This document shows positions 8,883-42,729 of a stretch of DNA of 64,000 nt, piece after piece. Positions within the stretch are counted from its first letter, which is position 1. Each line of letters begins with the position of its first letter. The notes under the pieces are model-generated. The model worked only from the letters and a program-made list of their open reading frames with translations, was not told the origin of the DNA and made no database searches. The DNA is from Anisus vortex (lineage: Eukaryota > Mollusca > Gastropoda > Planorbidae): contig OX421494.1 of assembly GCA_949126835.1 (NCBI GenBank), forward strand, positions 56,796,358-56,860,357. The letters run 5' to 3'. The position numbers and the translations under genes were made by a program.

Positions 8883-8886
8883 CTAC

Positions 8887-9911: not shown

Positions 9912-9914
9912 AAA

Positions 9915-9930: not shown

Positions 9931-10315
9931 GTGATTTACTAACAAACGTTTAGAGGATTTACTTCAACTTCAAGAATCGTTATACTATTTACACAAACTA
10001 TTTACAACTGCCGTAATACATACTCGTAACTTGGATGGATTGTGTTGGAAAATATGAACAATATACAATATACTAAAGATTGTGATTGAATTGAACATTG
10101 CTATTGAGAATCGGAAAACTTAACTATTCAGCCTGGAAAATTATCTGGTGTATTACCTTATCGAACAAAGTAACTCTAAGAAAGTATTATTTTTATGACC
10201 TTGTTGTGAAAAATCTGAACTGTGTGGTGTAGTGAATTATTCAAAGGACAGAAAGTAAGTTGGACACTTTTATTGTATTATTAACAAGATTTACAGTAAC
10301 TTTTAATAATATAAA

Positions 10316-13300: not shown

Positions 13301-14776
13301 GTAGCTTATGTGGAACAATTTAGCAATAGAATCTATCATGCTTTTAATCATGTTAAAGATAATCTTTTGCAGGCTCAGAAAAGAATGAAAGGGTACTATG
13401 ATGTCAAGGCCAGATCCCGATGTTTCCATCCTGGTGATAAAGTCCTCATGTTGACCCAATTGTCTGGACAACCCCTGAGTGCAAAATATACAGGACCATA
13501 TCAGGTTTTAGATAAAATCAGTGATGTAACATACCTTGTAAAAACCCCTGATAGAAGGAAAACACAGAGACTGTGCCATATAAACATGCTAAAACCTTAT
13601 GTTGTTAGGGAAGAACAAACTGACATTAGGCCAGTGAGTGCTATCAAAACTGTTGAAACACCCCCGCCTAAATTTAAAAAGACAATCATAGAAAGTAAAC
13701 TTCAAAACACTGAAGCACTTAAAAACCTCAATGATAAACTGGCACATCTAGACTCAGGTGAACAGACTTCTATCAAGGGTTTAATCTATGATCATGTAAA
13801 TTTGTTTAGTGATGTTCCTAACAAAACAACTTTGGTTACCCATGATGTAGTTTTAAAAGATGATAATGTTAAACCTGTCAAACAACATCCGTATAGGGTT
13901 AATCCCATACAACTTGAACACATCCGTAAAGAAATTGATTATATGCTGAGCAATGATATAATTACTCACAGTAACAGTGATTGGTCATCCCCATGTGTGT
14001 TGGTTCCCAAATCTGATGGTTCACTACGCTTTTGTGTAGACTATAGGAAATTAAACCAAGTGACAAAAACAGATTCGTATCCCATACCACGGATAGATGA
14101 TTTAATCGATAGAGTAAGCACTGCAAACTATGTAACTAAGATTGACTTACTAACAGCTTATTTCCAAATCCCATTAACAGATAGGGCTCAGGAGGTATCA
14201 ACTTTTGTTACTCCTGATGGATTATATAAGTTTAAAGTAATGCCATTCGGAATGGTCAATGCTCCAGCTAGTTTTCAAAGACTAATAAACACTATTATCC
14301 ATGATATCCCACAATGCCATGCATATCTGGACGATATCGTAGTGTTCAGTAATAACTTTAATGATCATCTACATCAGTTAAAACTATTATTCCAAAAACT
14401 AAAACAGGCTAATCTTACTATAAACCTAGTTAAAAGTCAATTTTGCCATGCAGAAATTGAATATTTAGGTCATGTAGTGGGTAATGGCAAAGTAAAACCA
14501 GTGAATGCCAAAGTCAAAGCTATACAGGAATTCCCTGTCCCTAAAACGCAGAAACAACTTCGAGGATTTCTGGGTATGGCCGGGTACTACAGGAAGTTTT
14601 GTAAAAACTTTTCTATTATCACTTGCCCTTTGACAAATCTCTTGAGAAAGAAAAATCAATTTAAGTGGACTCAGGAATGTGACCAAGCCTTTAACGATAT
14701 AAAAGACATACTGACCAAGGCACCAGTATTAGTCTCACCTGATTATACTAAACCTTTCAGAATAACGGTAGACTAG
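10316..14776 (+). CDS. gag-pol: Gag-protease-integrase-reverse transcriptase polyprotein
   Basis: 1486 codons from an ATG after a 404-base leader. In order: a charged, coiled-coil-like gag region (residues about 80-150, rich in RE repeats); a CCHC zinc knuckle CSHCKRIGHTKEKC near residue 379; an aspartic protease active site LRDTGAEVSLL with the catalytic D at about 530; an integrase HHCC zinc finger (H near 763, CKSCNTC near 790); the catalytic D827, D886, E922 with the classic 35-residue spacing; a GPY/F-type motif YTGPYQV; and RT with the YLDD active site near D1339. RNase H follows in the same frame after a TAG at 14774-14776. Integrase upstream of RT is reversed relative to ordinary gypsy elements. 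The TAG is either a recent nonsense change or a readthrough point; the sequence alone does not decide. Confidence 0.95.
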   Translation: MEATNNLTLDPEIFDLTSEQLNKMSMIQLKELAKSLGISITETRPSKTKLLQEVTECLRKQGTLIIEETTANDNINDESDDELPFPIKQRVKHTTGDLSEELKFKLELRKMELEMERERESQRIEMEREIAREKIASQERIEIARSRTSNHSNASSEADAELYKFKKHIPVFEDNSVEEFFMIFERNARDYQFPEGKKAILLRSALNKGKALDVVLSLTEEELYDYELIKNRVLLSYALTPEKYRKVFRESKKEQEQSHVDFLRQKKKYFERWIRSKGVNKDFDKLANLMLMEDFNNNIRGDVRIHLADKGVEQVETAAVMADEYVIIHSSNKFTTVDKSKFQNRDMKVEKKTMNPNESYQSKRHQQSNQGPTNSKPTCSHCKRIGHTKEKCWILNGNPNKKNVVLSYVAMPKQRTHENVKKDIRTQTEIPSANADNLTKHTYLGNLKPEIVPEIETMVFNNSNSNLSSKESISDRTTMSTKHTSYKNNLDTDLIDTEIPSNCLPFIEEGTVSSIINGVTSEKNIRILRDTGAEVSLLLENTVPTSQSTYTGQDLTIQGVSRKNVQVPLHQIQLKSAYFTGNVVVGVYKSLPFKGVSLILGNDIAGDVVHSISKKKQYLNKSESFIKPICIVTRGMAQQQKSVETMSKSKIEPEIDLQATFLADILSGPSVKTTESNLSPRQLLLLEQNRDSGIKHLKKKVITEQEAEMNGNGFFLKEGILMQKWRDVKCDNDNCREGSQIVVPAIYRNDILHMAHDTPYAGHLGVNKTYRRILPYFYWPGLHRDVTKYCKSCNTCQIVGKPNQTIPVAPLKPIPAFAEPFSHLLIDCVGPLPKTKTGHQYLFTIMCTATRYPEAIPLRTINADKISDALIAFCSRYGLPKTIQSDQGSNFTSKLFNQVLKKLGIQHATSTAYHPQSQGALERYHQTLKTMLRTYCFENTEDWDRGIPFALFATRETVQESLGFSPFELVFGHSVRGPLKLLQETLLNSDEETGLVAYVEQFSNRIYHAFNHVKDNLLQAQKRMKGYYDVKARSRCFHPGDKVLMLTQLSGQPLSAKYTGPYQVLDKISDVTYLVKTPDRRKTQRLCHINMLKPYVVREEQTDIRPVSAIKTVETPPPKFKKTIIESKLQNTEALKNLNDKLAHLDSGEQTSIKGLIYDHVNLFSDVPNKTTLVTHDVVLKDDNVKPVKQHPYRVNPIQLEHIRKEIDYMLSNDIITHSNSDWSSPCVLVPKSDGSLRFCVDYRKLNQVTKTDSYPIPRIDDLIDRVSTANYVTKIDLLTAYFQIPLTDRAQEVSTFVTPDGLYKFKVMPFGMVNAPASFQRLINTIIHDIPQCHAYLDDIVVFSNNFNDHLHQLKLLFQKLKQANLTINLVKSQFCHAEIEYLGHVVGNGKVKPVNAKVKAIQEFPVPKTQKQLRGFLGMAGYYRKFCKNFSIITCPLTNLLRKKNQFKWTQECDQAFNDIKDILTKAPVLVSPDYTKPFRITVD

Positions 14777-14788
14777 TGTAATACAGGA

Positions 14789-15124
14789 ATGGGCGCGGTA
14801 ATCTCACAAATAGGAGATGATTCACTTGAACATCCCATTAGCTTTTGTTCAAAAAAATTTAACCCACATGAGGTAAATTATAGCACAATAGAGCAGGAAT
14901 TAATAGGACTTATCCAAGCATTGAAACATTTCAATTACTATGTAAATGGTTCTCAGTTCCCAATCGAGATATTCACTGATCACAATCCCCTAGTATTTCT
15001 TTCCCGCATCAAACAAAATCAGCGCATTCTAAGATGGAGTTTGTTTATTCAAGCTTACAACTTAAAAATAACTCACTTATCTGGAAAAGATAACATCGTC
15101 GCGGACACCCTATCGCGCATGTAA
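14789..15124 (+). CDS. RNase H domain, in frame with pol beyond a TAG
   Basis: About 111 codons from the first ATG after the stop, in the same frame as the long ORF. Typical gypsy RNase H blocks are present: MGAVISQ, SFCSKKFNPHEVNYSTIEQE, LKHFNYYVNG, FTDHNPLVFL and the ending ADTLSRM. The coding signal begins directly after the stop (CNTGMGAV), so the domain is a natural continuation of pol and not a separate gene. The 772 bases from here to the 3' LTR are non-coding, and no env is seen. Confidence 0.9.
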   Translation: MGAVISQIGDDSLEHPISFCSKKFNPHEVNYSTIEQELIGLIQALKHFNYYVNGSQFPIEIFTDHNPLVFLSRIKQNQRILRWSLFIQAYNLKITHLSGKDNIVADTLSRM

Positions 15125-15896
15125 CAAATGTATAAGGAAATAGATAACTTCATGTATATATTCTGATAATCCTAACTAAGAGAATTGGATCATTTAAAAT
15201 ATAAATGCATGAATATATGAATATGTTGTGATTATTTTATGCAATATCTTATGCCTTATTTTATGCCATGAATATTTCCATTTGCTAAAACAAATATTAT
15301 TATTGTTGTAGGAAAAAAGAAAAAACCTAATAAGTTACTTTTAAGTATTATTGATTTATGGACATAATTTTCTTTATTAGTAAGATAATGAATGAACAGA
15401 AATGTACATCCTTATTTTGAAACAATCAAACTATAGTTGTGATTATGTAAAAACCAAGATAGAGTAATGTGCATACACTTCACATGCTTACACACTTAAG
15501 ATTAAACTCTTACTTTAAAATTTATTTAAATATTAATTTCATTTAAGTTGAATTAATTAATGATTGAATTGTTTAATATGATAACATTAGTTATGTTGAT
15601 TTTTACCTTATAAATAAGATGATGATGTTTATAAGGAATGATATCTCAGAGAGTATAATTTTTAGAATAACGCGAACATGTGTTATGGTCTAAGGATAAC
15701 TTGAGATCCTATATGATGAGGGTTTAATAGAATAAATTATTTCCCTTACTTGTCTTATTTAACGGACTACCCAGGTGGAGTCAGTTTTTTTTTTGTATAT
15801 TGTTTAGAACTAAAGTTAAGTGCAGGCGGTTCTAAAAGAAATTGCACACTTCTATTGTTTAGTATGCAATGTTCTTTTCCTTTTGGTACGGGCGAC
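15125..15896 (+). other. Non-coding 3' region of the LTR element
   Basis: AT-rich with no reading frame of note. A clean polypurine tract is not obvious immediately before the 3' LTR; the last bases are GGTACGGGCGAC. Confidence 0.7.
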
Positions 15897-16921
15897 TGTT
15901 ACGAAACGTAAATTCCCTACATTGTAATGTTAATAAACCAACTAAATCATTTAAGCGAATTGCGTTTAAACGATATAAAATATTTCTCAGCTCAAGGTTT
16001 CCCCCCGGGTTTTTCCTAACCTAATGAGAGCATTATTGTTTTTTTATTAACCTCGATAAAAACATGAACTGTTCACGTAAACACAGCGTGTCAAGGTCGT
16101 CCGGTCTCTCCTTATTTTGTTAGAGCATTATTGCTTGACATTCTGATCACGCAGTCAACATGCAGGCTTGATTTAAATATTCGTGTCACTAGGCTGTCTG
16201 GTTTTTCCAACGATTGACCCGTAATATATTTCTACGCGATTCGACACTTTTGGTCAGTTCTTGGCGTACATTCGATCAGATAACATCTAAGATTCTGAGT
16301 CTCTGAGTATCGTTTCTATTTAAGTTGTATTATGGAAAATTTATTATTCTACTATTAACTACAATGCTATATGTTCATTGAGGATATTCATTACTAATTG
16401 GAATATGTGTAGTTCTTGATTGTGTATATAATATTATTTGGATTCCTACTGGATTGATGTTGTAAATTAAACCAAATTTATCGTTGCTTTCTACACAACT
16501 TGGTTAGCGTCAATATTTCAAAGTTATATACATGTGTGTATGTGTAATATTTATTCAACTATATTAATAATCTACACTACCACTCGACATCGAGGTTCTT
16601 GCTGTATAATATGAGCCACATAAATAATTATACATGAAGTAAATCAACTGAAAACTCTAAAACTACGCTATGTGAATTGCCAGGGGATTATAAGAACCAG
16701 GAATACTCTAGACAACTACAAATAAACTTCAGATTAATATAATAAGATCTTCACTAATACAAGGATACTCACACTAATAATAACAATACTATAACTATTA
16801 TTTTCATAAATTGAATGGGGGCTCTAGCCGTAATAACATTATAAATCATAATTATACTTGTGTGATCTAAATAGAACGTCTCATCCATAATTTATTATGG
16901 TGAATAAATTGCCTTGTAATA
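15897..16921 (+). repeat. 3' LTR
   Basis: 1025 bp, matching the 5' LTR with one visible mismatch (C at 16877). It is followed by target duplication CTAC. Confidence 0.95.
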
Positions 16922-19017: not shown

Positions 19018-19023
19018 AACGTA
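19018..19023. other. Target-site duplication, left (AACGTA)
   Basis: AACGTA abuts the first base of the foldback element. The same six bases follow its last base at 33798-33803. Flanking sequence outside these hexamers is not shared. Confidence 0.9.
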
Positions 19024-19056
19024 AGTAGTGTAGTGTGTAGTTTTCAGGTAGTATTT

Positions 19057-19182
19057 GAGGCGTACGCCTCGAGGTGTACGCCTCAGTTGACCTTTGACCT
19101 TTGACCCCGGCCGTGACCTTTGACCCGGAAGTGACCCCTACCGGAAGTCGTTGTACCGGAAGTGACGTCATCCAAGATGGCG
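19057..19182 (+). promoter_or_regulatory. Terminal cluster of promoter-type motifs, left copy
   Basis: Within 126 bp: two tandem 14-bp palindromes (GAGGCGTACGCCTC, then GAGGTGTACGCCTC, 19057-19084); direct-repeat nuclear-receptor sites (complement AGGTCAAAGGTCA, 19088-19126); three CCGGAAGT ETS cores at 19125, 19141 and 19156; a full CRE TGACGTCA at 19163-19170; and AAGATGGCG, a YY1-type core, at 19174-19182. Spacing is tight, as in TATA-less promoters. Function is inferred from motifs only. Confidence 0.65.
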
Positions 19183-19199
19183 TCTTGTCGTGTTGTTAT

Positions 19200-21300
19200 A
19201 CGAGGGTTTTTTAATTAAGGGTAATACATTTTGTCAGCGGTTCTAAAATTATTTTTCCCATTGTCTTACAATGATTGATTTTCCTATTGCCTTACAATGA
19301 TTGACACATGTCATATTATTTCTCCCATTGTTTTATAATGGTCTTTATAAGGTTCAGCGGTTCTAAAATTTTATAATTATTTGATAATATTAATTAATTG
19401 GTTATTTTTATAGTGTTCTTAATCATTTTCAATAGTAAAAGGCTTTTTTCAATAAGTTTATTGTGTTTTTTGCCCTAATTAGCATCTTTAAATCGATAAT
19501 TGTCTTGTAAGGGTCATTTTTAATTACTTGGAGACAGTAATTGTCTTAATTTATTCTTAATTAATTAACTAATTATTATTTTTATAGCCATAATTAGCAT
19601 GTAAAGGAGCGTTTATTAATTACCAAGGGCCCTAATTATCACATTTTAATCAATAATTCTCTAATAACGTGTCTTATTACTTACTTGGACACAGTAATTG
19701 TCTTAATTTATTCATAATTAATTAACTAATTATTATTTGAATAGCCATAATTAGCATGTAAAAGGGCGTTTATTAATTACAAAGGGGTGTAATTATCACA
19801 TTTTACTCAATAATTCTCTAATAACGTACCTTATTAATTACTTGGACAAAGTAATTTTCTTAATTTATTCTTAACTAATTAACTAATTATAATTTTTTTT
19901 TTTACCATAATTAGCGTGTAAAGGATTGTTTTTAATTACTAAGGGGCCGTAATTACCACTAAATAGACCACATTTTATATACTTTTTCCATTTTTACTTA
20001 CTGGGGTACAGTAATTTTCTTAATTGTATACTTTATTAATTAACTAATTATATTTTTTTAACCATAATTAGCGTGTAAAGGAACGTTTTTAATTACTAAA
20101 GACCGTAATTATCACTAAATAGAACACATTTTATATACTTTTACTTACTTGGACACAGTATTTTTTTTTTATTCCTAATTAATTAATTAATTATAGTTTT
20201 TAGTCATAATTACTATTTTTTAATTTTCTTTTAAACATAATTATTTTTAATTTGAATTGATAATCAATGTTTTGAAAGTCTAAACATATATCCTTAAACA
20301 TTTTTAGAACCCCTGAGTCGCTTATTCACATCGCTGTCGAAATTTTACCTGAGCAGCTGTTTATTTTTATTTTTTATCGCGCACCGTGCGTCTTTTAATG
20401 ACTTTTTCAGCTGTTGTGTAAACTCTTTGGTGGTGCTGTTCTCGCTCGCGCTGTTAATGACTTTTTCATCTGTTGAGAAAAGTCTTTTGATCTTGTTTCA
20501 CTCGCTTTTTAATGACCTGGTGTGAAATAGAGATAAAACTGCCCTTTCAAAGCCTGCTATGGGAGATAATATATATAGCACTAAAAGTTTTTTCTTTACA
20601 ACTTACATTTCCCAGATATTATTCGAGTTTTTTTTTTTGTTTTTTTTATGATTTGCATTAGTTTTGGGGGTATTTTTTCTTTGTATTTCGAGTATTCCTT
20701 TTTTAAATATTTCTCTTTTCAATTTAAATAATTTAAATTTTTTAATCGTTAAATGCAATGTTTGACTTACTATAACATCATTATTTCCTTAATTTTATAC
20801 TTACCTATTTTAAATGTGTATCTTTTAAATTTAAATTTTCTTAATTTTCTTTTGATAATTGAATTTTAAGATTCTTTATTTACTTACTAAAAGCCGTGAT
20901 TTTCTTTATTTTAAACATACACATTTTACAATTAAAACGATAAGTAAATACAATTTTTACTTACTAAAACCAGTAATTTCTTAATTTTATACGAAATTAA
21001 TTAACGAATTATATTTTTTATAGCCATAATTATCTTGTAAATTGGCGCTTTTAATTACTAAGAGTCCTAATAAGCACATTTTAAACGACACTTCTTTTGT
21101 AAGGAACACCTATTTACTTACATGGATAGAGTAATTATCTTTATTTTATACTTAATTCATTATTTAATTTTTATTTTATAACCATAATTATATTGTAAAG
21201 GACGTTTTTTATTAAGATGACGTCTAATTTGTTGTTACACGTGATTTTAATACGTGATTGTTTAAATTTAAGAATGTTAATATTAATATTTTGGTTTAAT
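19200..21300. repeat. TAATTA-rich degenerate tandem repeats, left copy
   Basis: Roughly seven diverged units of about 120-170 bp. Each has a TTACTTGGACACAGTAATT-like block, an AATTAATTAACTAATTA block, CCATAATTAGC and a GTAAAGG run. No coding potential. It separates the terminal motif cluster from the zinc-finger gene. Confidence 0.8.
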
Positions 21301-21899
21301 TAATTTTTTTTCTTATTTATTGACAATAAACAACAGTACAACAGTACGACATAAGGAAAATCAACATAAAAGAAAAACCAAAAATACAATTTTAAGTTAT
21401 ATATGAATTTTATTCATAGTGTTCTATAGGTATAGTATGTACCCCAATTTAAAAAGTTTATTTATACCAACGCATATATACAATAGCAAGTAAAAAAAAA
21501 AAGTTTATTTATAGTAATACATTTATACAAGAGCAATACATTTATACAATAGCAATACAGATGTTCAATCGTTTTATTTACATCAGAATACAATTTTATT
21601 TTACAACTATGAAACCAGTCCAATGTCGGCCCCTAAGTGTAGTCTGTGTGTATGCCCTAGACACGCCAAAACTAATTAAATGTCTAGTGGTATGGTTGTA
21701 AATGAGTCTGATTGCAATTGTCTTTTGATATAAAAATAAGAAAGGGAACTGCGGTGTTGTGTGTATGTAAAGACTGAATTTTCAAGTGTTTTGAAACCTA
21801 TATGTTTACCACCCCCTTATTGTTGTGATGTATTAAAGTAGCTTTATCTAGTGTGTTGTGTTGTTTCGTTAGACCTCATATAAGTTAAGAAATATTGAA

Positions 21900-22799
21900 T
21901 CAACCTACGGGATAATCATTTAGGTGGTAGATATAGAAACTAGTCGCTGGAATACATTCGACCTGATAATTAGTATTTGGCCTGTTTAGAAGTCCTATAT
22001 CTAAAATGTCTGTTTCATTTAAGTGTTCTATGAATGAGTGAAAATCATGTATATTATTAATCAGTCTTGGAGTGTCTAAGGCAGTTGCGTTGTTAACTGA
22101 GCTATGAAAAAAACGAAGTTCATTTGTCTCCTTATGTCTTAAAATGAGATGGTGGCTGTAATTTATTTTGTATCGTTTTGTTTGTTGTGTAAATAGCTGG
22201 TCTGTTAGTCGTGTCTGCCAGTCAATGGGATGTTTACTTAATGGACTATGGAAATAATTATAGGTTGAAATGTGCTTGTGGATGTTATGGTGCGTTTGAA
22301 GAGCAGTCCAATGATCGATATACGTAGCCTTTATGTCTTGTGGCAAATGTTCTAACAAGTCAAGTTCGTCTTGAATGTCCATTAAATCAACGTCGTTATG
22401 TTGGTTGTCTAATACGGTAAGGTCTAATAATGGTCTTTTACTGGTGTTATCTAAATCATTATTTGACTTCCTTTTTTGTGTAGTTGTTGTCTCTGTAGAT
22501 GTGGACGCTGTTGGTGTTGTATCTGCCGCTGTTGGTGTCTCTACCACTGTTGGTGTCTCTGCCGCTGTTGGGGTGGTTGTTTCTGTCGATGTTAGTGTAG
22601 TCGATGTTGAATCCATAGCCTGTGCATGGTCTTTCTTAGTATGTCTTTTTAAAGCATCGGCTCTGGTGTAGAAACGCCCACATATAACACAACTATGATG
22701 TGTTCTACCGTGGACTGAATCTGTATGCCTCGTTAGGTCACAATTCCGGGAGAACACACGCGTGCACTTAGTACATGCAAATCTTTTACGTGCTTCCAT
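21900..22799 (-). CDS. C2H2 zinc-finger protein, left-arm copy
   Basis: 299 codons, identical in translation to the right-arm copy at 30024-30923. Two C2H2 fingers lie near residues 7-31 and 35-59 (C-x2-C-x12-H-x4-H; FACTKCTRVFSRNCDLTRH and SCVICGRFYTRADALKRH). A Thr/Pro-rich linker (about 62-108) with repeated PTAAETPT-type units follows, then a KRK basic patch, an acidic stretch, and a conserved-looking C-terminal block with LRFFHSS, DTPRLIN and NDYPVG. That block resembles the leader preceding polymerase domains in Polinton-type PolB proteins; this is recognition from memory and unverified. A likely role is DNA binding at element sequences. Perfect identity between arms implies recent conversion or a recent origin by duplication. 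Confidence 0.85.
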   Translation of the reverse strand: MEARKRFACTKCTRVFSRNCDLTRHTDSVHGRTHHSCVICGRFYTRADALKRHTKKDHAQAMDSTSTTLTSTETTTPTAAETPTVVETPTAADTTPTASTSTETTTTQKRKSNNDLDNTSKRPLLDLTVLDNQHNDVDLMDIQDELDLLEHLPQDIKATYIDHWTALQTHHNIHKHISTYNYFHSPLSKHPIDWQTRLTDQLFTQQTKRYKINYSHHLILRHKETNELRFFHSSVNNATALDTPRLINNIHDFHSFIEHLNETDILDIGLLNRPNTNYQVECIPATSFYIYHLNDYPVG

Positions 22800-22871
22800 C
22801 TATATATGAATATAGAAAACAAAAAACATGACGTGTACGCGTGTACTATAAAGCTTAAATAATACAGAAAC

Positions 22872-22927
22872 CTAAAAGAATAAAATATGAAACATATAAA
22901 CCAAAAAATATAAAATAGGCAACTTAC
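22872..22927 (-). other. Possible 5' UTR intron, left copy
   Basis: Mirror of 29896-29951: minus-strand donor GTAAGT and acceptor TTCTTTTAG, 56 bases apart, between the TATA box and the ATG of the zinc-finger gene. Confidence 0.5.
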
Positions 22928-23023
22928 TTTATTGTATAACAAATGAACTCAAACGTTAGAGCTAACCAAAATCGCCGTTTGAGGTATTGTCAGGTAAAGC
23001 GTCGAACGAACGCCGACAAGCGA

Positions 23024-23031
23024 TATTTATA
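23024..23031 (-). promoter_or_regulatory. TATA box of zinc-finger gene, left copy
   Basis: TATAAATA on the minus strand, about 225 bases before the ATG, and mirrored at 29792-29799. Confidence 0.65.
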
Positions 23032-23102
23032 CACACCAGACACAAGTGCACTAAAGCACCTGCTCGAGAGAAAATCTATAAACTAACATTCCCAAGCGCA
23101 GG

Positions 23103-23363
23103 TTAATTGCTTCCCCGTCCAGATGGTCTTCCCCTTATCTGCCCACTGGGCGCTGAGCAAAGTAACGACTTCCTGTCCAGATGTTATTTCCCTTATCTGG
23201 TCATGAGCGCTGATCAAGGTAATTACTTCCTGTCCAGATGTTATTGCACTTACCTGACCTTGCTCGCTACTCACGGTAATTACTTTTCTGTACAGGTGGT
23301 CTCTCCCTTATCTGCCCGCTGGTAGCTGACCAAGTTAACGACTTCCTGTCCAGATGTTATTGC
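23103..23363 (-). promoter_or_regulatory. Upstream repeated element, left copy
   Basis: On the minus strand, about four or five copies of CATCTGGACAGGAAGT (E-box CATCTG joined to an ETS-type AGGAAGT), alternating with CAGATAAGG (GATA-type). They lie directly upstream of the TATA box. The arrangement is enhancer-like; function is inferred. Confidence 0.6.
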
Positions 23364-23529
23364 ACGTTCCTGACCGTGAGAAAATCTAAAAGCCAACATT
23401 CCCAGGGTCATGCCAACCCTAACCGTCAACAACGTTCCCCCTTTATTTTATTTTTTTATTTTTATTTTTATTTTTGTTGTTTTTTTTTTATCTTCTTTAA
23501 TTTCTGTCTTTTTACTAACTTTTTATCTG

Positions 23530-24520
23530 TTTCCCGAAAAAATGTTTAAGTACAATTTCTCAAACTCTCCCTCTCTTGAAAAACTTTTTTCACACACTCG
23601 AAAACTTTTCAGGGCACATTTGTTTAATCTTTTTATCCCTCTCGAAAACTTTTGAGAGCAACTTTTCAAAATCTTTTACACCCTCGACAAACTTTTTTAA
23701 GTTTACCTTCCCAAAACCTCTCTCTCTTGACAACATTTTTTTAAGTTCACCTTCCCAAACTATCGATCTCTCCCGACAACTTTTCAAGTACGACTTTTCA
23801 AACGCTCGATCTCTCTTGACAAACTTTTTTAAGTTCACCTTCCCAAAATCTTTTACACCCTCAACAAACTTTTTTAAGTTCGCCTTTCCCAAACTCTCTC
23901 TCTCTCTCTCTTGACAACATTTTTTAAGTTCACCTTCCCAAACTGTCGATCTCTCCCGACAACTTTTCAAGTACGACTTTTCAAACGCTTGATCTCTCTT
24001 GACAAACCTTTTTAAGTTCACCTTCCCAAAATCTTTTACACCCTCGACAAACATTTTTAAGTTCGCCTTCCCAAACTCTCTCTTTCTTGACAAACTTTTT
24101 TAAGTTCGCCTTCCCAAATCTCTCTTTCTTGACAAACTTTTTTTTTTTTTTTTTTTTTTTTTTAGTTCACCTTCCCAAAATCTTTTACACCCTCGACAAA
24201 CATTTTAAGTACGCCTTCCCAAACTCTCTCTCTCTCTCTCTCTCTCTTGACAAACTTTTTTTAAGTTCACCTTCCCAAAATCTTTTACACCCTCGACAAA
24301 CATTTTAAGTACGCCTTCCCAAACTCTCTCTCTCTCTCTCTCTCTTGACAAACTTTTTTTAAGTTCACCTTCCCAAAATCTCTCTCTCACTCTTGACAAT
24401 CTTTTTAAGTACGACTTTTCAAACTCTCGATGTCCCCTGACAACTTTTTAAGTACAACTTTTCAAACTCTCGATCTCTCTTGACAAACTCTTTAAGTTAA
24501 CCTTCCCAAAATCTTTTACG
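23530..24520. repeat. TCTC-rich tandem repeats, left copy
   Basis: Units of about 50-60 bp with CTTGACAAACTTTTTTAAGT, CACCTTCCCAAAATC and TTTTACACCC, joined by TC runs. Long reading frames across it on both strands are repeat artefacts, rich in KVNLKKFV-type units. Confidence 0.85.
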
Positions 24521-24539
24521 CTAACTCTCGCTCAAAAAC

Positions 24540-25620
24540 ACTTTTTCTTAAAAGCTTTCCCACTCTCGACAAACATTGTAAGACACCACTCCTTGGACTT
24601 CGTTCTAACAGTAGCCATCTCTCTGTCTCCAACTCTTTCTCGCCCCATCTCTTCCTCTAACAGAAACTTTAAGTTAACACAACCCTAACCATCACGCATT
24701 CATTCTTTCTGCCTTGCTCAATCTCTGTATCTCTTACTTCATTCTTCTCTCAAACTCTGTATCTCTCTCTCTCTCGCTCTCTCTCTCTAAAAACGTTATG
24801 ATTAACAAAGTCTAACACATATTCCAATCCACATCCTTCATTCTGTCTTTCTCTTTCCTCCGTGCCATCTTTTACTTGTCTCATTCTCAGTACTTACTTC
24901 CCTTACTCTGTCAACACTTATTTCTCTCTTCGTCTCTTTTCGCTAACAAAACTGTATGTTAACCCAACCCTAACATTTACTTATTCCATCTTTCTGCCTT
25001 GTTCAATCTCTGTAGGCCTGTCTCTTACTTCATTCTTCTCTCAAACTTCGTCTCTCTCTCTCTCTCTCTCAAACTTTGTCTCTCTCTCTCTAAAAACGTT
25101 ACGATCAGCAAAAGTCTTACACATATTCCACTTCACATCGTTCATTATGTCTTTCTCTTTCCTGCGTGCCATGTTTTACTTGTCTCATTTTCAGTGACTT
25201 CTTTCCTTACGCTATCTACACTTATTTCTCTCTCCTCTCTTTCGCTAACAAAACTTTATGTTAAGCCATCCCTAAATATTACTCGTTCCGTCTTACTGCC
25301 TTGCTCAATCACTTATTTCATACTTTACTCTTTCTTTAGCTCTCTCTCTAAAAACACTTTATGTTCAGACAACCCTAACACATATTCTTCTCCAAATCTT
25401 TCACTCTGTCTTTCTTTTTCCTGCGTACCATCTTTTACTTGTCTCATTTTCTGTTACTCCCTTTCTTACTCTGTCTCCAGAGCTTTCTCTGACAAAACTT
25501 TAAGTTACTCTAAACATCTCTCTTTCAACAGCGTTCCCTCTTTCTGCCTTGTTCAATCTCTACCTTCTTACTAACTTCATTGTCCTCTTTCTAAAATTGT
25601 CTTCCCTTTTATGTTTTATA
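24540..25620. repeat. Longer degenerate repeats, left copy
   Basis: About three to four diverged units of roughly 260 bp. Each has an AACCCTAAC-like block, TTTCTGCCTTG, TCAATCTCT, TC tracts and TTTTACTTGTCTCATT. The reading frames are low-complexity (SLSLSLS) and are not genes. 25620-25980 is unrecognised apart from an AAGGTCAAGGTCAAC motif near 25721. Confidence 0.7.
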
Positions 25621-26085
25621 ACGTGCAAATTTGTTAAGAATTGTCACACCTAAAACTAAAACGATGTTTACTTTACACGTCACCAAGGTTTTGAAAATAA
25701 TGTTCTTGGGAGATATAGCAAAGGTCAAGGTCAACTGACTCTAGTGTGAATTTGGGAAAAGAGGGGCAGAAGAAAAAAACAATTTGTTGTTACTAGTTTG
25801 GGGCTGCTAGTTAATATTGTAAAGAGTTTTGTAGATCACTAGAACTAGTTTAAAGGAATTGTGATAAGTTTTAGGATGTGTATTTATTATTTTTAGCAAT
25901 TACTACTATAAGTTCGATAGGGTAGTGAAAAATTAATACTTTAAACTGAAGGTGTAGTGTTTTTAAATGTTTTGGACAGGACTAGGTATAGAAGTATTAT
26001 AAGGGTTTGAGTCAAGCAAGATTGCCTAAGTGGGAAGGTATATTTGGGTGTTGTAGATATATGTTTTGGCTTGGGATATCTACAA

Positions 26086-26738
26086 AGGTTTTTTTGAGAT
26101 TAGTGTTTTGGACAGGGCTATCAATAAAAGTATTAGAAGGTTTGGGTCAAGCTAGATTGCCTAAGTTGGAACATATATTTGGGTGTTGTAAATATGTGTT
26201 TTGTAAAGTCTGTGGTAGGACGGGGATATCGTTAAATATAGACTATAAGAAATCTTCCATGACATCAGTCAAGCAAGATTTCCTAAGTGGGGAAATTCAC
26301 TTGTGGGTTGTAAATATGTGTTTTGTAAAGTCTGTGGTAGGACGGGGATATCTATAAAGATAGACTATAAGAAATCTTCCATGACATCAGTCAAGCAAGA
26401 TTTCCTAAGTGGGGAAATTCACTTGTGGGTTGTAGATATGTGTTTTGTAAAGTTGGTGTTAGGACAGGACTATCTATAAAAATATTCTAAGGATTTGAGT
26501 CGAGTAAGATTGTCTAATTTGGAGGATTTATTTTGGGTGGCGATGGTATATGGTAAGATTGACTAAGTTGGAAGGTATATTTGGGTGGCGATGGTATGTG
26601 TTGGGGTTTTGTAAGAGTAGTGTTGGGATATGTTTGTTCACGGTAGAAAAAAAAAATCTGTCATAATGACTGTAGTCATAGAGGGCTGTTTCTCCTATTT
26701 GGTCATAAAACAATTGTATGTGAAATTAAGAAAAAAAA
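26086..26738. repeat. Asymmetric spacer of the foldback element
   Basis: About 650 bp not mirrored. It is built mostly from diverged direct copies of a unit also present at the arm tips, with GGTTGTAGATATGTGTTTTG, GGACGGGGATATC and TCAAGCAAGATT blocks. The right edge (26640-26738) carries a different AT-rich stretch. A reading frame at 26007-26357 is a repeat by-product. Confidence 0.8.
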
Positions 26739-27199
26739 TTGTAGATATCCCAAGCCAAAACATATATCTACAACACCCAAATATACCTTCCCACTTAGGC
26801 AATCTTGCTTGACTCAAACCCTTATAATACTTCTATACCTAGTCCTGTCCAAAACATTTAAAAACACTACACCTTCAGTTTAAAGTATTAATTTTTCACT
26901 ACCCTATCGAACTTATAGTAGTAATTGCTAAAAATAATAAATACACATCCTAAAACTTATCACAATTCCTTTAAACTAGTTCTAGTGATCTACAAAACTC
27001 TTTACAATATTAACTAGCAGCCCCAAACTAGTAACAACAAATTGTTTTTTTCTTCTGCCCCTCTTTTCCCAAATTCACACTAGAGTCAGTTGACCTTGAC
27101 CTTTGCTATATCTCCCAAGAACATTATTTTCAAAACCTTGGTGACGTGTAAAGTAAACATCGTTTTAGTTTTAGGTGTGACAATTCTTAACAAATTTGC

Positions 27200-28662
27200 A
27201 CGTTATAAAACATAAAAGGGAAGACAATTTTAGAAAGAGGACAATGAAGTTAGTAAGAAGGTAGAGATTGAACAAGGCAGAAAGAGGGAACGCTGTTGAA
27301 AGAGAGATGTTTAGAGTAACTTAAAGTTTTGTCAGAGAAAGCTCTGGAGACAGAGTAAGAAAGGGAGTAACAGAAAATGAGACAAGTAAAAGATGGTACG
27401 CAGGAAAAAGAAAGACAGAGTGAAAGATTTGGAGAAGAATATGTGTTAGGGTTGTCTGAACATAAAGTGTTTTTAGAGAGAGAGCTAAAGAAAGAGTAAA
27501 GTATGAAATAAGTGATTGAGCAAGGCAGTAAGACGGAACGAGTAATATTTAGGGATGGCTTAACATAAAGTTTTGTTAGCGAAAGAGAGGAGAGAGAAAT
27601 AAGTGTAGATAGCGTAAGGAAAGAAGTCACTGAAAATGAGACAAGTAAAACATGGCACGCAGGAAAGAGAAAGACATAATGAACGATGTGAAGTGGAATA
27701 TGTGTAAGACTTTTGCTGATCGTAACGTTTTTAGAGAGAGAGAGACAAAGTTTGAGAGAGAGAGAGAGAGAGACGAAGTTTGAGAGAAGAATGAAGTAAG
27801 AGACAGGCCTACAGAGATTGAACAAGGCAGAAAGATGGAATAAGTAAATGTTAGGGTTGGGTTAACATACAGTTTTGTTAGCGAAAAGAGACGAAGAGAG
27901 AAATAAGTGTTGACAGAGTAAGGGAAGTAAGTACTGAGAATGAGACAAGTAAAAGATGGCACGGAGGAAAGAGAAAGACAGAATGAAGGATGTGGATTGG
28001 AATATGTGTTAGACTTTGTTAATCATAACGTTTTTAGAGAGAGAGAGCGAGAGAGAGAGAGATACAGAGTTTGAGAGAAGAATGAAGTAAGAGATACAGA
28101 GATTGAGCAAGGCAGAAAGAATGAATGCGTGATGGTTAGGGTTGTGTTAACTTAAAGTTTCTGTTAGAGGAAGAGATGGGGCGAGAAAGAGTTGGAGACA
28201 GAGAGATGGCTACTGTTAGAACGAAGTCCAAGGAGTGGTGTCTTACAATGTTTGTCGAGAGTGGGAAAGCTTTTAAGAAAAAGTGTTTTTGAGCGAGAGT
28301 TAGCGTAAAAGATTTTGGGAAGGTTAACTTAAAGAGTTTGTCAAGAGAGATCGAGAGTTTGAAAAGTTGTACTTAAAAAGTTGTCAGGGGACATCGAGAG
28401 TTTGAAAAGTCGTACTTAAAAAGATTGTCAAGAGTGAGAGAGAGATTTTGGGAAGGTGAACTTAAAAAAAGTTTGTCAAGAGAGAGAGAGAGAGAGAGAG
28501 AGTTTGGGAAGGCGTACTTAAAATGTTTGTCGAGGGTGTAAAAGATTTTGGGAAGGTGAACTTAAAAAAAGTTTGTCAAGAGAGAGAGAGAGAGAGAGAG
28601 AGTTTGGGAAGGCGTACTTAAAATGTTTGTCGAGGGTGTAAGAGATTTTGGGAAGGTGAACT

Positions 28663-28694
<32 letters not shown>

Positions 28695-29290
28695 GTCAAG
28701 AAAGAGAGAGTTTGGGAAGGCGAACTTAAAAAAGTTTGTCAAGAAAGAGAGAGTTTGGGAAGGCGAACTTAAAAATGTTTGTCGAGGGTGTAAAAGATTT
28801 TGGGAAGGTGAACTTAAAAAGGTTTGTCAAGAGAGATCAAGCGTTTGAAAAGTCGTACTTGAAAAGTTGTCGGGAGAGATCGACAGTTTGGGAAGGTGAA
28901 CTTAAAAAATGTTGTCAAGAGAGAGAGAGTTTGGGAAAGGCGAACTTAAAAAAGTTTGTTGAGGGTGTAAAAGATTTTGGGAAGGTGAACTTAAAAAAGT
29001 TTGTCAAGAGAGATCGAGCGTTTGAAAAGTCGTACTTGAAAAGTTGTCGGGAGAGATCGATAGTTTGGGAAGGTGAACTTAAAAAAATGTTGTCAAGAGA
29101 GAGAGGTTTTGGGAAGGTAAACTTAAAAAAGTTTGTCGAGGGTGTAAAAGATTTTGAAAAGTTGCTCTCAAAAGTTTTCGAGAGGGATAAAAAGATTAAA
29201 CAAATGTGCCCTGAAAAGTTTTCGAGTGTGTGAAAAAAGTTTTTCAAGAGAGGGAGAGTTTGAGAAATTGTACTTAAACATTTTTTCGGG
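27200..29290. repeat. Degenerate and GA-rich tandem repeats, right copy
   Basis: Mirror of 23530-25620, with GA tracts in place of TC. An A-run of about 28 near 28663-28690 and GA tract lengths differ slightly from the left copy. Confidence 0.85.
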
Positions 29291-29459
29291 AAACAGATAA
29301 AAAGTTAGTAAAAAGACAGAAATTAAAGAAGATAAAAAAAAAACAACAAAAATAAAAATAAAAATAAAAAAATAAAATAAAGGGGGAACGTTGTTGACGG
29401 TTAGGGTTGGCATGACCCTGGGAATGTTGGCTTTTAGATTTTCTCACGGTCAGGAACGT

Positions 29460-29720
29460 GCAATAACATCTGGACAGGAAGTCGTTAACTTGGTCAGCTA
29501 CCAGCGGGCAGATAAGGGAGAGACCACCTGTACAGAAAAGTAATTACCGTGAGTAGCGAGCAAGGTCAGGTAAGTGCAATAACATCTGGACAGGAAGTAA
29601 TTACCTTGATCAGCGCTCATGACCAGATAAGGGAAATAACATCTGGACAGGAAGTCGTTACTTTGCTCAGCGCCCAGTGGGCAGATAAGGGGAAGACCAT
29701 CTGGACGGGGAAGCAATTAA
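29460..29720 (+). promoter_or_regulatory. Upstream repeated element, right copy
   Basis: About four or five copies of CATCTGGACAGGAAGT-type sequence with CAGATAAGG between them, 70-330 bases upstream of TATAAATA and oriented toward the zinc-finger gene. Confidence 0.6.
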
Positions 29721-29791
29721 CCTGCGCTTGGGAATGTTAGTTTATAGATTTTCTCTCGAGCAGGTGCTTTAGTGCACTTGTGTCTGGTGTG

Positions 29792-29799
29792 TATAAATA
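29792..29799 (+). promoter_or_regulatory. TATA box of zinc-finger gene, right copy
   Basis: TATAAATA in GTGTATAAATATCGC, followed by a GC-rich stretch around a likely start site near 29820-29830. Confidence 0.65.
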
Positions 29800-29895
29800 T
29801 CGCTTGTCGGCGTTCGTTCGACGCTTTACCTGACAATACCTCAAACGGCGATTTTGGTTAGCTCTAACGTTTGAGTTCATTTGTTATACAATAAA

Positions 29896-29951
29896 GTAAG
29901 TTGCCTATTTTATATTTTTTGGTTTATATGTTTCATATTTTATTCTTTTAG
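29896..29951 (+). other. Possible 5' UTR intron, right copy
   Basis: GTAAGT donor at 29896 and TTCTTTTAG acceptor ending at 29951. It lies between the promoter and the ATG at 30024. RNA evidence would be needed to confirm it. Confidence 0.5.
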
Positions 29952-30023
29952 GTTTCTGTATTATTTAAGCTTTATAGTACACGCGTACACGTCATGTTTT
30001 TTGTTTTCTATATTCATATATAG

Positions 30024-30923
30024 ATGGAAGCACGTAAAAGATTTGCATGTACTAAGTGCACGCGTGTGTTCTCCCGGAATTGTGACCTAACGAGGCATAC
30101 AGATTCAGTCCACGGTAGAACACATCATAGTTGTGTTATATGTGGGCGTTTCTACACCAGAGCCGATGCTTTAAAAAGACATACTAAGAAAGACCATGCA
30201 CAGGCTATGGATTCAACATCGACTACACTAACATCGACAGAAACAACCACCCCAACAGCGGCAGAGACACCAACAGTGGTAGAGACACCAACAGCGGCAG
30301 ATACAACACCAACAGCGTCCACATCTACAGAGACAACAACTACACAAAAAAGGAAGTCAAATAATGATTTAGATAACACCAGTAAAAGACCATTATTAGA
30401 CCTTACCGTATTAGACAACCAACATAACGACGTTGATTTAATGGACATTCAAGACGAACTTGACTTGTTAGAACATTTGCCACAAGACATAAAGGCTACG
30501 TATATCGATCATTGGACTGCTCTTCAAACGCACCATAACATCCACAAGCACATTTCAACCTATAATTATTTCCATAGTCCATTAAGTAAACATCCCATTG
30601 ACTGGCAGACACGACTAACAGACCAGCTATTTACACAACAAACAAAACGATACAAAATAAATTACAGCCACCATCTCATTTTAAGACATAAGGAGACAAA
30701 TGAACTTCGTTTTTTTCATAGCTCAGTTAACAACGCAACTGCCTTAGACACTCCAAGACTGATTAATAATATACATGATTTTCACTCATTCATAGAACAC
30801 TTAAATGAAACAGACATTTTAGATATAGGACTTCTAAACAGGCCAAATACTAATTATCAGGTCGAATGTATTCCAGCGACTAGTTTCTATATCTACCACC
30901 TAAATGATTATCCCGTAGGTTGA
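30024..30923 (+). CDS. C2H2 zinc-finger protein, right-arm copy
   Basis: Identical 299-residue product to the left-arm gene; see that entry for domains. The ATG follows TTCATATATAG and is the first in frame after the candidate 5' UTR intron. Polyadenylation signals AATAAA occur downstream (for example 31223-31228). The gene reads toward the right end of the element, as its twin reads toward the left end, so the two are divergent from the centre. Confidence 0.88.
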   Translation: MEARKRFACTKCTRVFSRNCDLTRHTDSVHGRTHHSCVICGRFYTRADALKRHTKKDHAQAMDSTSTTLTSTETTTPTAAETPTVVETPTAADTTPTASTSTETTTTQKRKSNNDLDNTSKRPLLDLTVLDNQHNDVDLMDIQDELDLLEHLPQDIKATYIDHWTALQTHHNIHKHISTYNYFHSPLSKHPIDWQTRLTDQLFTQQTKRYKINYSHHLILRHKETNELRFFHSSVNNATALDTPRLINNIHDFHSFIEHLNETDILDIGLLNRPNTNYQVECIPATSFYIYHLNDYPVG

Positions 30924-31519
30924 TTCAATATTTCTTAACTTATATGAGGTCTAACGAAACAACACAACACACTAGATAAAGCTACTTTAATACATCACAA
31001 CAATAAGGGGGTGGTAAACATATAGGTTTCAAAACACTTGAAAATTCAGTCTTTACATACACACAACACCGCAGTTCCCTTTCTTATTTTTATATCAAAA
31101 GACAATTGCAATCAGACTCATTTACAACCATACCACTAGACATTTAATTAGTTTTGGCGTGTCTAGGGCATACACACAGACTACACTTAGGGGCCGACAT
31201 TGGACTGGTTTCATAGTTGTAAAATAAAATTGTATTCTGATGTAAATAAAACGATTGAACATCTGTATTGCTATTGTATAAATGTATTGCTCTTGTATAA
31301 ATGTATTACTATAAATAAACTTTTTTTTTTTACTTGCTATTGTATATATGCGTTGGTATAAATAAACTTTTTAAATTGGGGTACATACTATACCTATAGA
31401 ACACTATGAATAAAATTCATATATAACTTAAAATTGTATTTTTGGTTTTTCTTTTATGTTGATTTTCCTTATGTCGTACTGTTGTACTGTTGTTTATTGT
31501 CAATAAATAAGAAAAAAAA

Positions 31520-33620
31520 TTAATTAAACCAAAATATTAATATTAACATTCTTAAATTTAAACAATCACGTATTAAAATCACGTGTAACAACAAATTAGA
31601 CGTCATCTTAATAAAAAACGTCCTTTACAATATAATTATGGTTATAAAATAAAAATTAAATAATGAATTAAGTATAAAATAAAGATAATTACTCTATCCA
31701 TGTAAGTAAATAGGTGTTCCTTACAAAAGAAGTGTCGTTTAAAATGTGCTTATTAGGACTCTTAGTAATTAAAAGCGCCAATTTACAAGATAATTATGGC
31801 TATAAAAAATATAATTCGTTAATTAATTTCGTATAAAATTAAGAAATTACTGGTTTTAGTAAGTAAAAATTGTATTTACTTATCGTTTTAATTGTAAAAT
31901 GTGTATGTTTAAAATAAAGAAAATCACGGCTTTTAGTAAGTAAATAAAGAATCTTAAAATTCAATTATCAAAAGAAAATTAAGAAAATTTAAATTTAAAA
32001 GATACACATTTAAAATAGGTAAGTATAAAATTAAGGAAATAATGATGTTATAGTAAGTCAAACATTGCATTTAACGATTAAAAAATTTAAATTATTTAAA
32101 TTGAAAAGAGAAATATTTAAAAAAGGAATACTCGAAATACAAAGAAAAAATACCCCCAAAACTAATGCAAATCATAAAAAAAACAAAAAAAAAACTCGAA
32201 TAATATCTGGGAAATGTAAGTTGTAAAGAAAAAACTTTTAGTGCTATATATATTATCTCCCATAGCAGGCTTTGAAAGGGCAGTTTTATCTCTATTTCAC
32301 ACCAGGTCATTAAAAAGCGAGTGAAACAAGATCAAAAGACTTTTCTCAACAGATGAAAAAGTCATTAACAGCGCGAGCGAGAACAGCACCACCAAAGAGT
32401 TTACACAACAGCTGAAAAAGTCATTAAAAGACGCACGGTGCGCGATAAAAAATAAAAATAAACAGCTGCTCAGGTAAAATTTCGACAGCGATGTGAATAA
32501 GCGACTCAGGGGTTCTAAAAATGTTTAAGGATATATGTTTAGACTTTCAAAACATTGATTATCAATTCAAATTAAAAATAATTATGTTTAAAAGAAAATT
32601 AAAAAATAGTAATTATGACTAAAAACTATAATTAATTAATTAATTAGGAATAAAAAAAAAATACTGTGTCCAAGTAAGTAAAAGTATATAAAATGTGTTC
32701 TATTTAGTGATAATTACGGTCTTTAGTAATTAAAAACGTTCCTTTACACGCTAATTATGGTTAAAAAAATATAATTAGTTAATTAATAAAGTATACAATT
32801 AAGAAAATTACTGTACCCCAGTAAGTAAAAATGGAAAAAGTATATAAAATGTGGTCTATTTAGTGGTAATTACGGCCCCTTAGTAATTAAAAACAATCCT
32901 TTACACGCTAATTATGGTAAAAAAAAAATTATAATTAGTTAATTAGTTAAGAATAAATTAAGAAAATTACTTTGTCCAAGTAATTAATAAGGTACGTTAT
33001 TAGAGAATTATTGAGTAAAATGTGATAATTACACCCCTTTGTAATTAATAAACGCCCTTTTACATGCTAATTATGGCTATTCAAATAATAATTAGTTAAT
33101 TAATTATGAATAAATTAAGACAATTACTGTGTCCAAGTAAGTAATAAGACACGTTATTAGAGAATTATTGATTAAAATGTGATAATTAGGGCCCTTGGTA
33201 ATTAATAAACGCTCCTTTACATGCTAATTATGGCTATAAAAATAATAATTAGTTAATTAATTAAGAATAAATTAAGACAATTACTGTCTCCAAGTAATTA
33301 AAAATGACCCTTACAAGACAATTATCGATTTAAAGATGCTAATTAGGGCAAAAAACACAATAAACTTATTGAAAAAAGCCTTTTACTATTGAAAATGATT
33401 AAGAACACTATAAAAATAACCAATTAATTAATATTATCAAATAATTATAAAATTTTAGAACCGCTGAACCTTATAAAGACCATTATAAAACAATGGGAGA
33501 AATAATATGACATGTGTCAATCATTGTAAGGCAATAGGAAAATCAATCATTGTAAGACAATGGGAAAAATAATTTTAGAACCGCTGACAAAATGTATTAC
33601 CCTTAATTAAAAAACCCTCG
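31520..33620. repeat. TAATTA-rich degenerate tandem repeats, right copy
   Basis: Mirror of 19200-21300. Confidence 0.8.
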
Positions 33621-33638
33621 TATAACAACACGACAAGA

Positions 33639-33764
33639 CGCCATCTTGGATGACGTCACTTCCGGTACAACGACTTCCGGTAGGGGTCACTTCCGGGTCA
33701 AAGGTCACGGCCGGGGTCAAAGGTCAAAGGTCAACTGAGGCGTACACCTCGAGGCGTACGCCTC
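33639..33764 (-). promoter_or_regulatory. Terminal cluster of promoter-type motifs, right copy
   Basis: Mirror of 19057-19182: CGCCATCTT at 33639, TGACGTCA at 33651-33658, ETS cores, AGGTCAAAGGTCA repeats and the two 14-bp palindromes, facing into the element. Confidence 0.65.
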
Positions 33765-33797
33765 AAATACTACCTGAAAACTACACACTACACTACT

Positions 33798-33803
33798 AAC
33801 GTA
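33798..33803. other. Target-site duplication, right (AACGTA)
   Basis: Matches 19018-19023 exactly. Confidence 0.9.
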
Positions 33804-34117
33804 TTGGGTCAGCCACTGATGGCAAGTTGGGTCACTCTTTTATTGGGTCAGCCACTGATGGCAAGTTGGGTCACTCTTTTATTGGGTCAGCCACTGATGG
33901 CAAGTTGGGTCACTCTTTTATTGAGTCAGCCACTGATGGCAAGTTGGGTCACTCTTTTATTGAGTCAGCCACTGATGGCAAGTTGGGTCACTCTTTTATT
34001 GAGTCAGCCATTGATGGCAAGTTGGGTCACACTTTTATTGAGTCGGCCACTGATGCTACGTTGGGTCACTCTTTTATTGGGTCAGTTATTGATGCCAAGT
34101 TGGGTCACACTTTTATT
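33804..34117. repeat. 39-bp minisatellite, about 8 copies
   Basis: Unit TTGGGTCAGCCACTGATGGC plus AAGTTGGGTCACTCTTTTA, repeated directly against the right end of the foldback element. Open frames of 111-113 codons across it are repeat by-products, since 39 is divisible by three. It is not present on the left flank. Confidence 0.95.
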
Positions 34118-34180
34118 GCTAATATCTTCCGTGTTGTGAGTTTGTGTGTCCATAATTATTTTTTTTAAATCCAATATAAC

Positions 34181-42612: not shown

Positions 42613-42729
42613 CTGTTGAAAAGAAATGTTCATTATAAAATACAATATATTGGGTCAATAATATGGCTAGTCTAGTCTTTCAGGAAGAAAAAAATCAACT
42701 TGTCCCATTAAGGCATAATGTATTTATAA

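Follow-up and report, generated by a model that had tools for sequence, protein, structure and literature searches.

Here, we describe a 14,774-bp near-perfect palindrome in a 64,000-nucleotide stretch of the genome of the gastropod Anisus vortex (the window; contig OX421494.1, C3:56796358-56860357), together with a family of such palindromes in the same genome. The family is probably a non-autonomous satellite of Polinton/Maverick-type elements, which would be mobilised in trans and whose arms would be rebuilt by fold-back copying. An initial annotation of the window had proposed a Polinton relative or satellite in the form of a giant palindrome, and this is the best-supported reading of the data presented here, with many copies in the genome and four elements that have the same 22-bp end and a PolB-type frame.

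Results

Self-alignment of the window places the element proper at 19024-33797. Its two arms of 7.07 kb align in inverted orientation (19019-26095 against 33802-26731) with 99.746% identity over 7,082 columns, and only 2 substitutions and 16 gap columns lie between them. The alignment ends at a 6-bp direct duplication, AACGTA, and the flanks have no mirror symmetry. In these respects the element is as it was first annotated, with reverse-complementary arms of about 7.06 kb, the AACGTA duplication and non-homologous flanks. Two further descriptions were refined: the ends, given as AGT...ACT, are indeed inverted AGT ends, with the triplet doubled to AGTAGT, and the giant palindrome has palindromic arms around a non-palindromic spacer of 635 bp. 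When the frames of at least 90 amino acids (aa) in the element were listed, the longest was an open reading frame (ORF) of 299 aa. No rve integrase, ATPase, protease or capsid family was found by Pfam in the three frames of the element that were sent, the other short frames being repetitive-looking by eye and outside the Pfam search, and no complete PolB frame was found in the element, which holds a 299-aa N-terminal part only. An IL3 match above its Pfam cut-off on a purine-rich frame was taken as a low-complexity match and rejected.

The whole genome (863 Mb, 159 contigs) was searched with the terminal 383 bp of the element, and the best 40 of 599 candidates were scored. By our own reading, 36 of these 40 best-scoring matches can be joined into 18 inverted pairs with 13-22 kb between the partners, and one of these pairs is that of the window. 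For the other copies, both halves were fetched for 10 pairs and the ends alone for the remaining 7; the inverted arms of the 10 fetched copies are 4.5 to 7.2 kb long. All 18 copies read have AGTAGT at both ends and a 6-bp duplication (16 perfect by script, 2 after counting an extra AGT), and every one of the 18 target duplications is different. A third AGT triplet is present at 2 of the 36 ends read (one end each of L042 and L035), and jumping-back initiation could produce such variation. The exact 22-bp terminus, AGTAGT(A/G)TAGTGTGTAGTTTTC, occurs 190 times in the genome (99 forward, 91 reverse), whereas the reversed-pattern control gave 0 forward and 0 reverse matches. Chance is excluded because of the 6-bp duplications in 18 copies and the 190 termini against none in the control, and the further copies with the same ends and different duplications, which the initial annotation had advised to look for, are thus numerous. 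No relative of the terminus, of the Bcl-2 protein or of the zinc-finger proteins described below was found in viral contigs (IMG/VR), and the palindrome arm had no match in phage records.

The two arms of one copy are much more alike than the arms of different copies. For example, the arms of L025/L026 differ by 1 substitution in 7,182 bp; those of the older copy L023/L024 are about 1% apart, and no 500-bp bin is free of substitutions. Between copies of one cargo class the difference is 0 to about 15% per 500-bp bin, the bins at the inner arm ends being left out, and copies of different cargo classes diverge more than copies within one class. In arm trees of 10 copies (L027/L028 left out), the outer 1.2 kb places both arms of a copy together as sisters in all 10 cases, the 2-4-kb segment does so in 9 of 10, and the inner 1.5 kb in 7 of 9, L011/L012 with its shorter arms being left out of the last tree. 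The arms are therefore homogenised within each copy and are not a frozen collapse, which amends the collapse to a giant palindrome that had been proposed at first. In addition, the Bcl-2 copies L011, L013 and L021 group with the zinc-finger class in the outer-segment tree and not in the cassette tree. Because the two trees conflict, the cassettes appear to have been exchanged between copies, in both arms alike.

The centre of the window copy holds a possible trace of how the arms are rebuilt. All 8 other copies compared have a homologous spacer, 1.1-1.5 kb long and with tandem repeats of 122 bp, which occurs in either orientation; that of L017 is without about its first 380 bp. The shorter window spacer has the 122-bp tandem repeats at 26146-26484; it follows the L009 spacer to about position 862 and then continues with inverted L009 sequence from position 324 on, and about 335 bp that are spacer in other copies have turned arm here, on both sides. 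The switch to the inverted left side lies at an 8-bp microhomology, TTGTAGAT, and looks like a template-switch junction left by one fold-back copying event. The centre of L011/L012 holds frames that look by eye like the reverse transcriptase of a non-LTR (long terminal repeat) retrotransposon, replacing or interrupting the spacer.

Each arm has one cargo slot, which is occupied by the zinc-finger ORF in 4 and by a Bcl-2 gene of gastropod type in 13 of 17 copies read; the 18th copy has Bcl-2 matches by position. The Bcl-2 cargo protein matches PF00452 (E 1.2e-23) and Bcl-xL structures (E 9e-28), and its match to TIGR00865 (1.3e-28, 100.5 bits) is below the 283-bit cut-off of that family. It has the domain with Bcl-2 homology (BH) regions and a C-terminal membrane segment, the C-terminus being hydrophobic by eye. 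Directly after the tryptophan of the BH2 region comes an intron-like stretch that is bordered by GTAAGT...CAG and measures 117 nt in the reference copy; human BCL2 has an intron in the same position. Because the intron is present, the sequence suggests that the gene was captured from host DNA and not from mRNA. The joined-exon protein of 199 aa matches a Biomphalaria protein at 64% identity (source name heat shock protein 30C, but with a Bcl-2 domain) and a Bulinus Bcl-2-like protein at 60%; its grouping with both of them and with two further, unnamed proteins has a support of 0.996. A database protein 99% identical to the cargo comes from a 2,882-bp ENA contig (P0004), which could be a transcript.

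Among 8 exon readings of the Bcl-2 gene, 7 have an open frame, the exception being L022 with an in-frame stop at codon 4. Pooled across 8 copies, the ratio of non-synonymous to synonymous differences (pN/pS) is 0.35, a value derived from few and non-independent changes. The gene has a 9-nt deletion in L014 and is disrupted in L047. When the genome was searched for Bcl-2, the best 146 of 504 candidates were scored; by our own count, an internal stop was listed for 38 of them and none for 108. These 146 matches form 60 opposite-strand pairs within 16 kb, 58 of which point outward, and no same-strand pairs, with 26 singles. Two inward-pointing pairs of more distant Bcl-2 matches (75-76%) represent a second element type, and the edge of one of them, about 1.5 kb outside the gene, has AGTAGTATAGTAGG, an inverted-repeat-like stretch and a motif array similar to that of the palindromes. 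The copy L027/L028 (C14:7.87-7.89 Mb) is 19.4 kb long and contains a third Bcl-2 match as well as an inner inverted 2.9-kb repeat of its own left end.

The other cargo connects the palindromes with PolB. The 299-aa ORF has C2H2 fingers (PF00096, 4.6e-6), and a protein search with it gave three relatives. The genome search for this ORF scored the best 131 of 2,134 candidates. Among the matches listed, residues 125-299 (approximately) have 53%-identical relatives within frames of 1495, 1492, 1516 and 1291 aa. The DNA_pol_B_2 profile had 7 matches in the genome, all above the cut-off, and none in 14 control genomes. Four of the 7 lie about 1 kb downstream of the 53% relatives, in frames of the same length and phase (offsets of 1,482 or 1,467 bases, multiples of three), and the remaining 3 have a relative of the zinc-finger ORF nearby, in another listed frame. 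Because its relatives share frames with DNA_pol_B_2, the window ORF is, by its sequence, the N-terminal part of a PolB-type gene. The initial annotation had given each arm one zinc-finger gene, which is correct for the window copy; that gene is now read as this N-terminus instead of an unrelated remnant, and most of the copies whose slot was read carry Bcl-2 in its place.

Among the matches listed, 19 loci have closer relatives (88-91%) within frames that are 1,333-1,572 aa long, and at these loci the zinc fingers (residues 1-62) often lie about 120 bp upstream in a separate short frame. Using the 72 listed loci taken as covering the C-terminal domain, we found the short form (<320 aa) in inverted pairs at 18 of 21 loci, as against 2 of 32 for the long form (at least 1,200 aa; Fisher p 3e-9), and with five partial short loci restored the counts are 18 of 26 against 2 of 32 (p 6e-7). 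Between divergent copies the pN/pS of the zinc-finger ORF is 0.43, from three sequences only. The AlphaFold model of the protein has a mean predicted local distance difference test (pLDDT) score of 49.7, and NCBIfam gave nothing useful for it. At C15:33896860 (-) and 33899902 (+), two divergent PolB-type frames of 1,545 aa lie 3 kb apart; they are possibly a palindromic element that keeps the long gene in each arm.

Candidate helpers with the same terminus are also present in the genome. Of the 190 termini, 100 are listed, all lying between C1 and an early part of C9, and 90 of these make 45 plus/minus pairs within 25 kb, with 10 unpaired. Among the matches listed, 15 of the 45 pairs hold two Bcl-2 matches, 2 hold one and 5 hold two zinc-finger matches, and 4 each enclose exactly one listed PolB-type frame of 1,431-1,434 aa. 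These four elements (16,292, 16,277, 16,272 and 13,660 bp) have the identical 22-bp end, their long frames contain close relatives of the window zinc-finger ORF, and, judging from the match list, they appear to be without a second, inverted gene copy. The initial annotation had advised a search for autonomous Polintons sharing the terminal 100 bp; the four elements share the 22 bp and have a PolB-type frame, and the DNA_pol_B_2 domain was not found inside them. Among the long-frame loci of close relatives in the listed part of the genome (n = 10), 4 lie in exact pairs and 1 beside a single terminus. The 19 listed pairs without any listed match share the identical 22-bp end, are 9.3-16.2 kb in size and may contain other classes of cargo.

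Large palindromic copies were also considered as the autonomous form. The 21.8-kb copy (L029) was rejected, as it holds a retrotransposon frame near-identical to that of an LTR element elsewhere in the window, and so was an 18.5-kb copy, whose frames resemble gag and integrase by eye. The centre of a 17.6-kb copy has no frame of at least 110 aa.

The features of the window element are collected in Table 1. The subterminal inverted repeat differs in sequence between copies, with alternatives in L023 and L025 (by eye). The promoter-like array is present in all 20 arms examined, each with 3-5 CCGGAAGT, one TGACGTCA and one AAGATGGCG in addition to the TGACCT repeats; we take these motifs to be ETS-like, CRE-like and YY1-like, respectively. 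Because CT-rich repeats adjoin the centre, the GC skew beside it is extreme and mirrored (-0.46 in 24001-26000, +0.465 in 28001-30000).

Table 1 Features of the palindromic element and its borders (window coordinates).
Feature	Position	Strand	Basis
Target-site duplication, 6 bp, left copy (AACGTA)	19018..19023	.	Arm alignment and end reading
Left arm of palindrome	19024..26095	+	Self-alignment
Left terminus, 22 bp, AGTAGTGTAGTGTGTAGTTTTC, terminal AGT doubled	19024..19045	+	
Subterminal 14-bp palindrome, GAGGCGTACGCCTC	19057..19070, mirror ~33751-33764	.	
Promoter-like array: TGACCT repeats, CCGGAAGT, TGACGTCA, AAGATGGCG	19090..19190	+	Motif reading
157-bp tandem repeats, 4.1 copies	19472..20115, mirrored 32610-33349	.	
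299-aa ORF, left arm, outward-pointing; two C2H2 zinc fingers and conserved C-terminal domain	21900..22799	-	
CT-rich tandem repeats, strong strand asymmetry	23588..25332	.	
Spacer part of other copies (~335 bp) turned arm, both sides	25762..26095	+	
Central spacer, non-palindromic, 635 bp	26096..26730	.	
Right arm, reverse complement of left arm	26731..33797	-	Self-alignment
8-bp microhomology TTGTAGAT at spacer switch	26739..26746	+	Spacer comparison
Same 299-aa ORF, right arm, outward-pointing	30024..30923	+	
Right terminus, same 22 bp as left	33776..33797	-	
Target-site duplication, 6 bp, right copy (AACGTA)	33798..33803	.	Arm alignment and end reading

Repeats of other kinds surround the element. 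A 39-bp tandem array of 8.1 copies (33802-34118) begins at its right border, and the insertion therefore sits at the edge of a satellite array. A young LTR retrotransposon (8885-16921), with two direct 1,027-bp repeats that are 99.9% identical, encloses a 1,488-aa frame of gag/pol type by eye (10310-14776). Minisatellites with units of 17-54 bp, several of them more than 90% homogeneous, lie at 1-1436, 42729-44175, 44429-45172, 45531-46100, 47622-48156 and 56001-57284.

Discussion

We propose that the palindromes are moved by Polintons that act as helpers, and the following scheme would account for their form. The helpers would supply a protein-primed polymerase, which may start at AGTAGT by jumping back in an adenovirus-like manner, and the rve integrase of the helper would insert the product and make the 6-bp duplication. 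The displaced 14.8-kb strand could fold into a hairpin with a 7-kb duplex, and copying round the loop, or mismatch repair in the hairpin duplex, would yield identical arms in each cycle. Being self-complementary, the satellite may replicate with an advantage of the kind that copy-back defective-interfering genomes have, and the Bcl-2 cargo, apparently captured from host genomic DNA, could plausibly delay the death of cells that support helper replication.

Several observations weigh against this reading. The 18 copies read are the best-scoring ones and not a random sample, hence probably the youngest, and the 19 listed pairs without any listed match make the family more varied than described here. 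As for the helper, the DNA_pol_B_2 model had no match inside the four terminus-sharing elements, and the name rests on shared termini, length and N-terminal domain, with sharing known for the 22-bp end only. In addition, none of the four loci at which DNA_pol_B_2 and a zinc-finger relative occupy one frame falls within a listed terminus pair, even though the listing extends to these loci, and 5 of the 10 long-frame loci of close relatives lie in no exact listed pair. The arm trees also have exceptions, which are L023/L024 in the 2-4-kb segment and L013/L014 and L019/L020 in the inner 1.5 kb. Finally, arm identity alone can be explained by gene conversion after insertion.

Gene conversion in the chromosome would keep the arms alike once the element is in place; it concerns the arms only, is compatible with a Polinton satellite, and seems to us unlikely as their source. 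Long inverted repeats are known substrates of conversion, and the central switch in the window could be the end of a conversion tract instead of a template-switch junction. However, the arms of L023/L024, about 1% apart in every 500-bp bin, have not been kept equal in place, and the cassette and the outer segment each agree between the arms of one copy. A different relation to the helper, which we consider improbable, is that the palindromes are a second genome segment or mutualist of a Polinton-like virus, supplying Bcl-2 for cell survival and a zinc-finger regulator while the 16-kb element provides replication. The Bcl-2 frame looks kept (pN/pS 0.35; 7 of 8 readings open; 108 of 146 matches without a stop), two cargo classes occupy the same slot, and a related Bcl-2 (75-76%) is immediately internal to the end of a separate element whose terminus is of the same kind, all of which would suit a mutualist. 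A satellite would retain a useful gene too, however, and there is no sign that the helper needs Bcl-2; the ratio comes from few, non-independent changes, and the zinc-finger class holds a PolB fragment only.

Foldback and Galileo elements typically have inverted arms of great length that are rich in repeats, and the family might be a foldback transposon of another superfamily (P/Galileo, Mutator or Foldback) that is unrelated to Polintons and uses its own, unseen transposase. Such an origin is very improbable in our judgement, as the duplications are 6 bp in 18 of 18 copies, compared with the 7-9 bp of those transposons, elements that hold a PolB-type frame have identical 22-bp termini, the N-terminus of PolB is itself one of the cargoes, and the window element has no transposase-sized frame. 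Near-perfect palindromes are also a known form of assembly artefact, arising from an inverted read chimera or a collapsed hairpin. This explanation was rejected and has practically no weight for us: the flanks are unmirrored, the 6-bp duplications at 18 loci are all different, the spacers are unique, and the arms differ by both substitutions and indels.

The Polinton-type satellite mobilised in trans is therefore the reading that we prefer, and a more specific form of it can be put forward tentatively, as quite possible and somewhat short of probable. The palindromes would be endogenised satellites of an animal Polinton virus, with self-complementary genomes that are packaged and replicated by the helper and in which one half is rebuilt from the other in each cycle, and they would shuttle an anti-apoptotic Bcl-2 gene that was captured, intron included, from host genomic DNA, and swap cassettes by recombination. 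If this is true, the family would correspond, in DNA, to copy-back defective-interfering genomes that have become fixed as mobile elements, and, in animals, to hyperparasites of the virophage type. Many eukaryotic DNA viruses are considered to descend from Polintons. In a family with near-identical arms, the homogenisation of arms, jumping back at triplet ends and the capture of a host survival gene may be read from sequence, and the family can serve as a natural test of the fold-back products of protein-primed linear genomes. The family further points to a way in which a host gene, intron included, could get into a mobile element and multiply, two copies being added at each insertion.

None of the titles and abstract openings that our searches of open-licence papers returned describes palindromic, non-autonomous or Bcl-2-bearing Polintons, or satellites dependent on Polintons. 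The inverted ends of Polinton/Maverick elements start with AG. The palindromes resemble these elements and polinton-like viruses in their AG-starting inverted ends, 6-bp duplications and similar length, share their termini with local elements that have a PolB-type frame, and carry the N-terminal part of such a gene as one cargo class. Unlike Polintons, they have no complete PolB, integrase, ATPase, protease or capsid frame that we could see, and they consist of 6-7-kb arms, doubled cargo and a small unique centre. According to one report, rve integrase typically yields 6-bp duplications, and the terminal inverted repeats of polinton-like viruses, a hundred to thousands of bp long, are the ends of gene-bearing elements (PMC12220804). 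Adintoviruses have a PolB with an N-terminal extension (described as OTU-like) and, in some, zinc-finger 'Ziftr' genes; they are gene-bearing viruses, whereas the elements here are palindromic with no virion genes seen. In adenovirus, the duplicated terminal triplet (3'-GTAGTA) serves jumping back in protein-primed initiation (PMC4974454), and the AGTAGT ends described here are doubled in the same way, although priming by a terminal protein is only inferred for the palindromes. Foldback, Galileo and Tetris transposons are alike in their very long, repeat-rich inverted arms and short centre, and differ in the length of the duplication. By analogy, the closest functional counterpart would be the copy-back or snap-back defective-interfering genome, together with self-complementary vector genomes: these are helper-dependent, as the palindromes presumably are, self-complementary, with one half copied from the other and a switch at short homology, whereas the palindromes are DNA, are inserted into chromosomes with target duplications, and carry cargo genes.

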